Shown here piece by piece: positions 55 through 5,263 of a DNA stretch of 33,350 bases. Both the position numbers and the translations under genes were made by a program. The notes below the pieces were generated by a model that saw only the letters and a list, made by a program, of their open reading frames with translations, did no database searches and had not been told where the DNA came from. Positions within the stretch are counted from its first letter, which is position 1; every line of letters begins with the position of its first letter. This DNA comes from Treponema sp. (GTDB lineage: Bacteria; Spirochaetota; Spirochaetia; Treponematales; Breznakiellaceae). The stretch lies in the NCBI GenBank assembly GCA_031258505.1, contig JAIRMT010000038.1, positions 1 to 33,350 of the forward strand, in the 5' to 3' direction.

Positions 55-99
55 AAAAAAGCCGACCGACAAGCTGGGGGATGGCGCTCGCCGGTCGGC
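55..99 (-). terminator. Rho-independent terminator of the candidate ncRNA
   Basis: 8-bp GC-rich stem (61-68/92-99) followed by six Ts on the minus strand (55-60). Confidence 0.8.
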
Positions 100-358
100 T
101 GGAATCCGCGACGTATACCAGCATCCCCTCCGGGATACGTCGTGTTGAGAGTGTCCACTCATACGAGCAGGTCTCTCATATATCTAGGCGGTTACCCGCC
201 GTTGATACCTATAGAACCCGCAGTGCGTGGCCGGGACGAATCACCGTATCCAACGCCGCTGCGGGTGATAAGCCCCGTGGCGCTGGAAGTCGCCTTGGGG
301 CAGCTGGTGCTAAACCGGCTATGAGGTCTTCCAGGCCCTCATAGCCGCTCTTTACTCT
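55..358 (-). ncRNA. Candidate structured non-coding RNA of unknown family, ~300 nt
   Basis: Consensus-like promoter TTGACA-N17-GACAAT upstream (365-393, minus); at least six perfect or near-perfect stems (e.g. CGGCTATGAGG/CCTCATAGCCG, CCCGCAG/CTGCGGG, TGAGAG/CTCTCA, CGACGTAT/ATACGTCG); terminal hairpin GCCGACCG...CGGTCGGC followed by TTTTTT. Confidence 0.65.
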
Positions 359-2805: not shown

Positions 2806-2903
2806 AGGCCGAGAGCGATAACATAGTAACGTTTGACCCCAGGCAATCAGGCCGTTGGCGCTGGCCGTGGGGCTGCGAAGTGATACCGTTTAGGAGGGAT
2901 TGA
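2802..2903 (+). CDS. Possible translationally coupled 33-aa protein (M)KAESDNIVTFDPRQSGRWRWPWGCEVIPFRRD
   Basis: GTGA start/stop overlap with the XRE stop; ends 2 bp before the next gene's ATG. Confidence 0.4.
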   Translation: MKAESDNIVTFDPRQSGRWRWPWGCEVIPFRRD

Positions 2904-2905
2904 GT

Positions 2906-3733
2906 ATGATGGCTATGCCTGCAAAGTTTGTAAAGCGTGTTCAGGATTCGCTTAAAAAGTACCAGGGCGTTATTACGCAGATCAAGAAGAAGGATGCAAA
3001 CGAGTCAGATACCGTAACGGTTATTACTGATATTTTGCAAGATGTTTTCGGGTATGACAAATACTCTGAAATCACCTCCGAGTACGCTATTCGCGGTACG
3101 TATTGCGACCTTGCGATAGTTGACCAAAACAAGAAGATACGTTTCCTGATTGAGGTTAAGGCCGTTTCGGTTTCACTTAGCGACAATCATATTAAGCAGG
3201 CGATAGACTATGGCTCAAACGCGGGTGTTAATTGGGTCATACTCACCAACTCAGAGCGCTGGCTTGTATATAAGATTCGGTTTGGCCAGCCGATTGACAA
3301 AGAGCTTATCGCAGAATTTAATCTGCTTACAGTCAATCCTAAGTCAGAGAAAGACATTGAACCGCTTTTCATTATAAGCAAGGATGGGCAGGATAGGTCT
3401 GTCATAGATGAATTTTATGTCAACATTCAGGTTAAGAACAAATTTATCGTGGGAGCGATTCTGAATAGCGAAGAAGTCCATTCTCTTATTCGTCGCAACC
3501 TGAGAAAACTCTACAGCGATGTACAAATCTCTGTTGAAGAGATAGCTGACATCATGGCAAACGATATTATCAAGCGTGAGATAATTGACAGCGAAGAATC
3601 GAAGAAGGCGAAGAAGGACATTGAAAAAATGTACAAGAAGCTGGAACGTAAAAAAGAGAAGCTAAAGTCAGAGGAAGGGGCTAAACACGCTAAGTCAGAC
3701 GGTAAACCTGACGAGCAAGGGGAGAGTCAGTGA
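2906..3733 (+). CDS. Stand-alone HsdR N-terminal-like (PD-(D/E)XK) nuclease-domain protein
   Basis: VITDILQDVFGYDKYSEITSEYAIRGTYCDLAIVDQNKKIRFLIEVKA...QAIDYGSNAGVNWVILTNSERWLVYKI matches the HSDR_N pattern with D...EVK; SD TAGGAGG upstream; no helicase domain. Confidence 0.75.
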   Translation: MMAMPAKFVKRVQDSLKKYQGVITQIKKKDANESDTVTVITDILQDVFGYDKYSEITSEYAIRGTYCDLAIVDQNKKIRFLIEVKAVSVSLSDNHIKQAIDYGSNAGVNWVILTNSERWLVYKIRFGQPIDKELIAEFNLLTVNPKSEKDIEPLFIISKDGQDRSVIDEFYVNIQVKNKFIVGAILNSEEVHSLIRRNLRKLYSDVQISVEEIADIMANDIIKREIIDSEESKKAKKDIEKMYKKLERKKEKLKSEEGAKHAKSDGKPDEQGESQ

Positions 3734-3859: not shown

Positions 3860-4045
3860 ATGGCATTAACATTTGGCGATGAAGACAAGCGCAAAGAGGC
3901 GATGGAAATGTTTATTAGGGCTTTACAGGCCGCTCCTGATTCCTTTATTAAAGCCCTCACTGGGAAAAGCTACGCTAAAGAACTGATAGACGGTGCGACC
4001 GAGTTCAAGGGATATCTTTTCCCGGAAGGGGAGAGAAAGAAATAA
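3860..4045 (+). CDS. Hypothetical protein, 61 aa
   Basis: Good SD (GGGGAGGT) before ATG; coding-like composition. Confidence 0.5.
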   Translation: MALTFGDEDKRKEAMEMFIRALQAAPDSFIKALTGKSYAKELIDGATEFKGYLFPEGERKK

Positions 4046-5087
4046 TTTCTATTTCGGGAAGGGCATTGACAGCATTCATTCGCAGTTTGTCTGTTACTTT
4101 GGCATATTTCGCAACACTCGAAATGCTGGTATGGCCGAGTAGTCTGGCTACGGTGTAAATATCCGCGCCATTCTCCAAGGCCATTGTCGCAAATGTACGC
4201 CGGGCCGTATGCCAGCCTATGGTCTTTTTGAGACCTGCTTTCTTTGCCCAGTCCTTGAGATAGTTATAACTCGTGCGCCGGTTGTGGCCGGATAAGTTAA
4301 AAACATTCTCATCCGTCGTATGGGATTTGCCATCAACAATAATGGCCTGTACTGTTTTGTTCAATGGAATACACACGGGATTTTTTGTTTTTTCCTGGCT
4401 CTTTATTATTTGCATCGGATTGGAGTCTATCTTCCCCCATGTGAGAGTTTCAAGGTCGGAGACGCGAAGGCCAGTATAACAGGCGAAAAGAAAAGCGCGG
4501 CGCACCTCCGCTCCATACGGCTCATCAATAACCGTTTTCGCGAGGGCTTTCACTTCATCTACATTCAAGAATAACATTTCAGGCTCTGGGGCTGATATTT
4601 TTTGCACGACATCAGCCGGATTTTTTAGAATCATTTCATTGGATACTGCCCGCTTTAACGCTGAGCGCAATATTCTGGCATAGAAGGCCGCGCTGCCTCG
4701 TGACAGGTTATCTTTTTTCAACAGAAAATTTTGAAAATCGTCTACCCATTTTGGAGTTACTTGAATTAGCTGGATACTGCTACTGTGAAATTCTTTTATA
4801 TATTTTATGCAGCAATTAACAGCATTGGGGTTTTTATAATTCTTGGAATATTTCTCCATGTAGCCAATTAAAGAGATTTTACCGGCAATCGGATCGTTAA
4901 TATTCCACGCGCCAGTGAGCAGTTGCGTCTCTCGTTTTGACCGGCATATCTCAGCGAGCCGCCGTATTTCTTTATCCTGCGTTTTGTCCTTTGTAAGTTC
5001 AAGATGCAGGGCTTCCCATGTCCGCTTGCCGCTCTGGTATATATCCAGATACAGCTTACTACGCTTTTCGCGAACCTTTACACTCAT
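4005..5087 (-). CDS. Tyrosine recombinase / phage-type integrase
   Basis: C-terminal catalytic motifs: TGLRVSDLETLTW, HTARRTFATMALENGADIYTVARLLGHTSISSVAKYAKV; start at 5087 with SD GGAGG. Confidence 0.9.
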   Translation of the reverse strand: MSVKVREKRSKLYLDIYQSGKRTWEALHLELTKDKTQDKEIRRLAEICRSKRETQLLTGAWNINDPIAGKISLIGYMEKYSKNYKNPNAVNCCIKYIKEFHSSSIQLIQVTPKWVDDFQNFLLKKDNLSRGSAAFYARILRSALKRAVSNEMILKNPADVVQKISAPEPEMLFLNVDEVKALAKTVIDEPYGAEVRRAFLFACYTGLRVSDLETLTWGKIDSNPMQIIKSQEKTKNPVCIPLNKTVQAIIVDGKSHTTDENVFNLSGHNRRTSYNYLKDWAKKAGLKKTIGWHTARRTFATMALENGADIYTVARLLGHTSISSVAKYAKVTDKLRMNAVNALPEIEIISFSPLPGKDIP

Positions 5088-5263
5088 ATAAACCTCCATT
5101 GTCTACAATACGTCTACGTAAAGTGTAAGATAAAAGAAAAGTATTGTCAAGTTCTATTACAAATGAGACAATGCCAACGGCTTACAACTTGTTATATAGC
5201 AAAGAATTAGAAACAAATGGAAAAGGAAAGTCAAAAATGGTTGATAATGAGACATTTAACTTC

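Follow-up and report, generated by a model that had tools for sequence, protein, structure and literature searches.

Terminator-type hairpins with loops complementary to those of the preceding hairpins in a candidate prophage leader RNA from an uncultured spirochaete lineage

The window analysed here, a 33,350-nt stretch of the Treponema sp. assembly GCA_031258505.1 (contig JAIRMT010000038.1), carries close to its first base a strongly structured RNA element (358–55, minus strand) in which a terminator-type hairpin has a loop complementary to the loop of the preceding hairpin, an arrangement found twice in the same RNA. The reading we favour, with slightly better than even confidence, is that of a modular prophage leader RNA setting read-through into the following early genes in cis, as an attenuator, an antiterminator or both. 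A preliminary description had presented the element as an orphan non-coding RNA with a promoter and a terminator of its own. The structured, covarying and Rfam-unmatched element stands, whereas the terms orphan and stand-alone had to be given up: parts of it are found again as independent modules at numerous loci of the family (Breznakiellaceae), and it has a probably repressible promoter on one side and a downstream ORF on the other. A leader controlling read-through in a prophage early region fits these data better than an isolated non-coding RNA gene, and the element is probably an RNA switch that decides the reading of the next viral genes. RNA-based control of early transcription is documented in few model phages (put, P4/P1 immunity RNA and IsrK). 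To these the present case would add a diversified natural family, found in an uncultured lineage of spirochaetes, whose terminators are locked loop to loop with the preceding hairpin; it would also provide at least 16 natural heptamer pairs for studying the kissing-loop tuning of transcription termination, as well as a recognisable signature for early promoters of spirochaete prophages.

A promoter scan located the sigma70-like promoter TTGACA-N17-GACAAT on the minus strand at 393–365, as previously proposed, overlapped by an imperfect palindrome, TATTGTTTGAAATATCCGACAATA (387–364), which is the presumed operator. The identical promoter and palindrome are present in a related locus (L006), but with a different RNA behind them. 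Transcription presumably starts at about 358. The minus strand folds at -147.8 kcal/mol, compared to -111.2 ± 5.1 kcal/mol in dinucleotide shuffles (z = -7.16, 0/100), while the plus strand of the region gave z = -4.65, and about seven hairpins are found in the RNA, in line with the earlier count of stem-loops. Nothing suggests that the ORFs overlapping it are genes, in keeping with their incidental look in the preliminary description.

The hairpins are organised in modules, namely A (H1–H2), H3 and C (H4–H7). H1 (347–316) consists of the previously noticed 11-bp stem, CGGCTATGAGG/CCTCATAGCCG (347–337/326–316), and a 10-nt loop, GC-CUGGAAG-A. H2 (301–272) has outer GCCCC/GGGGC and inner GGCG/CGCC pairings and an 8-nt loop, A-CUUCCAG; it is a terminator in relatives (followed by a T-tract in L005 and L010), of which the window copy has lost the T-tract (GGGGCTTATCA). 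The H3 module (269–211; TATCACCC..GTTGGATACGG..CCGGCCACGC..GGGTTCTAT) has similar sequences 3' of terminators in L011, L012, L013, L054 and L057. H4 and H5 (210–143; GGTATC..GGCGG-GTAA-CCGCC..GATAT and TGAGAG..CTCGTATGAG..CTCTCA) open the 3' module, and their region shares 76–89% identity with L002, L003 and L004. H6 (142–109) is formed by the 8-bp stem already reported, CGACGTAT/ATACGTCG (142–135/116–109), with an inner CCGG/CUGG pairing and an 8-nt loop, A-GGGGAUG. The intrinsic-terminator-like H7 (99–55), the GC-rich final hairpin of the preliminary description, spans 99–61 with the loop GC-CAUCCCC-CA and is followed by T6 (60–55); it is absent from a simple terminator scan, the loop limit of which is 8 nt.

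Complementarity between adjacent loops joins CUGGAAG of H1 (334–328) to CUUCCAG of H2 (289–283), and GGGGAUG of H6 (128–122) to CAUCCCC of H7 (83–77). The loop geometry also recurs, in that a 10- or 11-nt loop (two bases, the heptamer, and one or two bases) is matched with one of 8 nt (an A and the heptamer), the order of long and short loops in module C being reversed relative to module A. For these loop sizes such complementarity is expected by chance at about 5e-4 and 6e-4 (placements/4^7). Another kissing-terminator module is present in the window at 2261–2187 on the minus strand (GUUACGG:CCGUAAC), behind a promoter, TTGACG-17-TACTAT (2407–2379, minus), that diverges from a CI-like repressor gene (2455–2805, plus); this second kissing RNA (2407–2187) likely occupies the PR-like position of the element.

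The same feature was found across related loci. From 63 unique HTH loci, 27 terminators were selected on stem and T-tract alone, and the partner was sought in the 75 nt upstream; 17 display perfect loop complementarity of at least 7 nt, compared to 8.0% with loops swapped between loci and 5.3% with loops shuffled. The 27 include related terminators and hence amount to fewer independent events. Across loci, 16 distinct heptamers are all perfectly complementary to their partners, a set that was gathered because the loops kiss and that measures diversity, not frequency. In alignment A4, which comprises only seven sequences, three of them with one common heptamer, every cell of the kissing helix (100%) is paired and double compensatory changes are seen in five of its seven pairs. 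Over the whole A4 structure 36 cells are doubly changed, versus 13.3 in shuffles and 2–5 with the partners slid, and this covariation bears out the earlier view of a genuine RNA element. The loops are thus complementary and covarying, and would be expected to pair in three dimensions. Strict kissing terminators numbered 16 in 149 kb of related loci (some of them not credible by eye) versus 3 in 299 kb of shuffles, and the 28 kb of host sequence in the window has none.

A covariance model, R1, in which the loops were set unpaired and which is thus blind to kissing, gave 16 matches at E < 1e-7 in 14 genomes of the family; its match to the window (353–267) concerns a sequence that is part of the R1 alignment. 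Nine new family matches were inspected in total. Loop complementarity reaches 9 nt in L101 and L108, 7 nt in L099 and the first match of L107, and 6 nt in L104 and L119, while seven pairs, one of them G-U, were recognised by inspection in L103. The second match of L107 retains 5 nt only, and L105 has lost the T-tract and displays no loop complementarity. When R1 was run on 395 genomes of the phylum, only weak matches (E 1.6e-5 to 4e-4) were obtained beyond the family, and the seven inspected ones are without 7-nt loop complementarity and look like chance.

The first 5.2 kb of the window also encodes a tyrosine-recombinase integrase (4005–5099, minus; Pfam Phage_integrase 8.2e-26, PHROG integrase 4.9e-52), an HSDR_N-like protein (2900–3733), the CI-like repressor, a ribbon-helix-helix protein (1791–2036, plus), a phage-type membrane protein and the small HTH protein next to the RNA, and the accessory island of the preliminary description is accordingly a prophage-like element. 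One related locus (L055) encodes an integrase, an HSDR_N-like protein and a small repressor-like protein in the order of the window, and another (L093), with the 3' module in common with the window, is a prophage with an integrase, repressors, RecT, an SSB-like protein and a replication initiator. A position after a promoter flanked by a repressor and before genes of an element with integrase and replication/recombination genes marks a prophage early-operon leader, and such contexts were found for the window and L093, the downstream gene of the window being seen as a fragment at the contig end. Many related loci are likewise interrupted by MAG contig ends. The window itself is one contig of a 2.06-Mb MAG (69% complete), whose named relatives in GTDB comprise Treponema sp. 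MAGs and a single Spirochaetia bacterium record; judging from isolate names and lineage, the host is probably a termite-gut spirochaete.

The small HTH protein (67 aa; 458–661, plus), which had been mentioned as the neighbour of the RNA, is divergent from it and gave a weak match to the Sigma70_r4_2 HTH, just under the cut-off. Homologues are encoded in 41 of 202 family genomes, many of them divergent to a TTGACA promoter and several with a palindrome between -35 and -10, while tblastn revealed none in phages; the protein is presumed to repress the RNA promoter. On the other side, a downstream ORF starts behind the T-tract (38–1, minus), with an SD (AAGGGGAAG) and an ATG at 38–36 followed by MEEDLNEWARNN, and runs to contig base 1. 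This ORF start has no second copy in the 202 family genomes and occurs in the window only. The SD-preceded ATG lies 16 nt from the T-tract in the window, and an SD-ATG is found 3' of most T-tracts, 13–36 nt behind the hairpin or T-tract in L006, L010, L019, L021, L037, L069, L075, L002, L003 and L004. The gene directly behind the leader encodes an AntA/AntB antirepressor in L069 and an excisionase-like protein in L003. Because the gap between the stop of the RNA and the start codon is too short for a promoter, expression of the downstream gene would have to come from read-through.

A BLAST search of the RNA against 200 family genomes returned different stretches in different loci, with partial homologues covering the 5' third alone, the middle alone or the 3' half alone. 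The homologues are thus mosaic, and the RNA is an assembly of modules that recur separately in many loci of the family. Module A lies between two genes in L007, without a promoter of its own; behind the T-tract of L012 and L057 comes H3 or another module instead. Tandem HTH-promoter-RNA units in L010, L012 and L021, in which the next unit replaces the gene expected behind the first RNA, suggest insertion unit by unit; some leaders in these arrays precede the antisense of the next HTH gene, not a recognisable gene. Heptamers mostly differ among the tandem units of one locus, and one genome (G003) has several copies with the same heptamer, GGTTACGG.

Sister leaders carry another conserved element. 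The motif GTTCTCCC occupies a hairpin loop in 12 of 13 sister leaders, with stem arms that vary yet remain complementary, and in 11 of them the stem begins 25–30 nt after the -10 box; in L038 and L040 a kissing terminator comes after this hairpin, which is possibly an antitermination signal or a protein-binding hairpin. Its resemblance to a promoter-proximal signal supports an antitermination reading of the whole system. Loci with the hairpin include L018, L034, L038, L040, L044, L046, L059, L064 and L073, the motif often being followed by AAGAA.

Taken as a prophage leader, the element may function as follows. The divergent small HTH protein would repress the promoter via the palindrome between -35 and -10. 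Once the promoter fires, the leader would be transcribed and each terminator-type hairpin locked to the preceding one (H2 to H1, and H7 to H6) by a 7-bp loop-loop helix. From the anatomy, most transcripts would by default end at T6 (60–55) to give a compact RNA of about 300 nt, and the next gene, with its own SD and start codon, would be expressed only when the polymerase reads through. The released RNA, carrying the same free loop, might speculatively act in trans too, which would explain heptamers that diversify yet stay complementary. Integrase, CI-like repressor, RecT, SSB-like and replication proteins near the modules provide the context for this leader reading; counting against it, kissing is compatible with the terminator stem and some array leaders are without a recognisable gene behind them. 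No alternative pairing of the terminator stem was found in the MFE or centroid fold, and the loop-loop helix can form alongside that stem, so that the structure shows no clear switch between two states.

Trans action is central to an unlikely alternative, RNA immunity, in which the terminated RNA of a resident prophage, through its free loop, pairs with the growing leader transcript of an invading phage that has the same loop type, and this causes termination, in a manner likened to P4 CI RNA and P1 C4 RNA. This would agree with a divergence of the heptamers that greatly exceeds that of their stems (49% versus 11% for H1 stems, in five related modules) and with the different heptamers in most tandem units of one locus. 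It would also suit the AntA antirepressor gene behind one leader, an antirepressor gene being the kind of gene that P1 C4 RNA controls. However, the two loops lie a few tens of nucleotides apart in one RNA, so cis pairing should dominate, and the same heptamer is kept in several copies in some genomes such as G003. The heptamer divergence may reflect diversifying selection for specificity or a relaxed constraint under which complementarity alone must persist. Similarly doubtful is the proposal of a new class of RNA regulators, self-kissing terminators whose heptamer serves as an interchangeable code in trans for RNA-only immunity typing; if true, the leader of a resident prophage would silence or activate the early genes of phages with the same heptamer code. 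A put-like antiterminator, with the kissing hairpin pair binding the elongating RNA polymerase to let it pass downstream terminators, is very unlikely: two adjacent hairpins right after a prophage promoter recall HK022 putL (PMC9378689) and the L007 module lies between genes, but the second hairpin is a terminator in relatives, kissing is not described for putRNA (PMC9378689), and the conserved-loop GTTCTCCC hairpin is a better candidate for the antiterminator role. Less probable still is an independent small RNA with targets elsewhere, the downstream gene being expressed by leak-through only and kissing just stabilising the RNA, as the strong promoter, compact fold and terminator would allow, against which stand the SD-ATG shortly behind the T-tract in most loci, the leader types kept while downstream genes change, and the promoterless intergenic copy in L007.

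By analogy, the leader most likely works like HK022 put, P4/P1 immunity RNA, pT181 attenuators and IsrK, but it is not assigned to any of them, as it has no Rfam match and the published accounts consulted do not describe kissing by a terminator loop for these systems. P4 CI and P1/P7 C4 are leader RNAs of an operon of a temperate element that use short complementary loops for early or antirepressor gene control. The present RNA shares the leader position and the short complementary loops, but here these are adjacent in one RNA, one of them on a terminator hairpin, and no Rfam match was obtained. HK022 putL forms two stem-loops of about 70 nt just downstream of PL (PMC9378689). It is characteristic of put RNA that it binds the beta' zinc-binding domain of RNA polymerase and suppresses terminators. 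The likeness lies in a hairpin pair at an early prophage promoter, in an RNA presumed to affect termination; unlike put, which is not a terminator and has no kissing loops described (PMC9378689), every pair here closes with a terminator-type hairpin, and its heptamers are variable and complementary, in a comparison of architecture. The pT181-type attenuators likewise combine a 5' leader, a hairpin loop in a kissing interaction and an intrinsic terminator before the gene (PMC4878617). In pT181, however, the loop kisses an antisense RNA made separately, and the terminator stem is sequestered by an anti-terminator sequence; in the present leader the terminator loop itself serves as the partner, and no clear anti-terminator was found. 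The Gifsy-1 IsrK small/messenger RNA, also from a prophage, stops at a terminator and has a functional isoform made by read-through (PMC4825925); its genes and host are different, and the abstract of that paper makes no mention of a kissing terminator.

Searches for a known family agreed with the earlier impression that the RNA is unlike RNase P, tmRNA, 6S and SRP RNA. In the window no Rfam family reached the gathering score, the best sub-threshold minus-strand match being Hrs13 (15.3 bits versus a cut-off of 52); on the plus strand the best relaxed match, sRNA162, was rejected as mostly the inverted repeat around the promoter. Rfam searches of 15 related loci returned tRNAs and one cobalamin riboswitch only, with no C4 antisense RNA match, and BLASTN of the RNA gave one 27-nt chance match in phages and none in plasmids. 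A type III toxin-antitoxin RNA, which would consist of tandem copies of a short antitoxin unit followed by a terminator and a ToxN-like gene, was dismissed, as 55–358 contains no direct-repeat family of at least 25 nt and no ToxN was seen behind the sister RNAs, where genes include excisionase and AntA; integron attC-like DNA hairpins, raised by the mosaic, were dropped, since the complementary loops, the promoter, the T-tract and the SD-ATG indicate RNA. A literature search, with most subscription journals outside its coverage, found no paper on self-kissing terminators.

Several minor observations were also made. A recurrent leader sequence, GTTATCGGC, followed by AC/TA and then GGC, sits in hairpins after the promoter or after terminators in L003, L004, L035, L045, L055 and L057, that of L045 being a variant. 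In L008 (minus, about 1100–1700), the loop of the first hairpin is perfectly complementary to the terminator over 16 nt, AGGTCCTAAACAGGGC/GCCCTGTTTAGGACCT, and this leader appears more like a classical attenuator. Within the window, an apparently non-coding 59-nt direct repeat (1341–1399 and 2111–2169, 93% identity) has its copies 770 nt apart, and an inverted repeat at 1501–1570, GGGATTTGC..GCAAATCCC, with an A run 5' and a T run 3', resembles a bidirectional terminator. At 1615–2036 the ribbon-helix-helix gene is divergent from a promoter-like site (1818–1790, minus) with a small ORF behind it, a unit that has the repressor/promoter layout of the RNA locus without a leader RNA.
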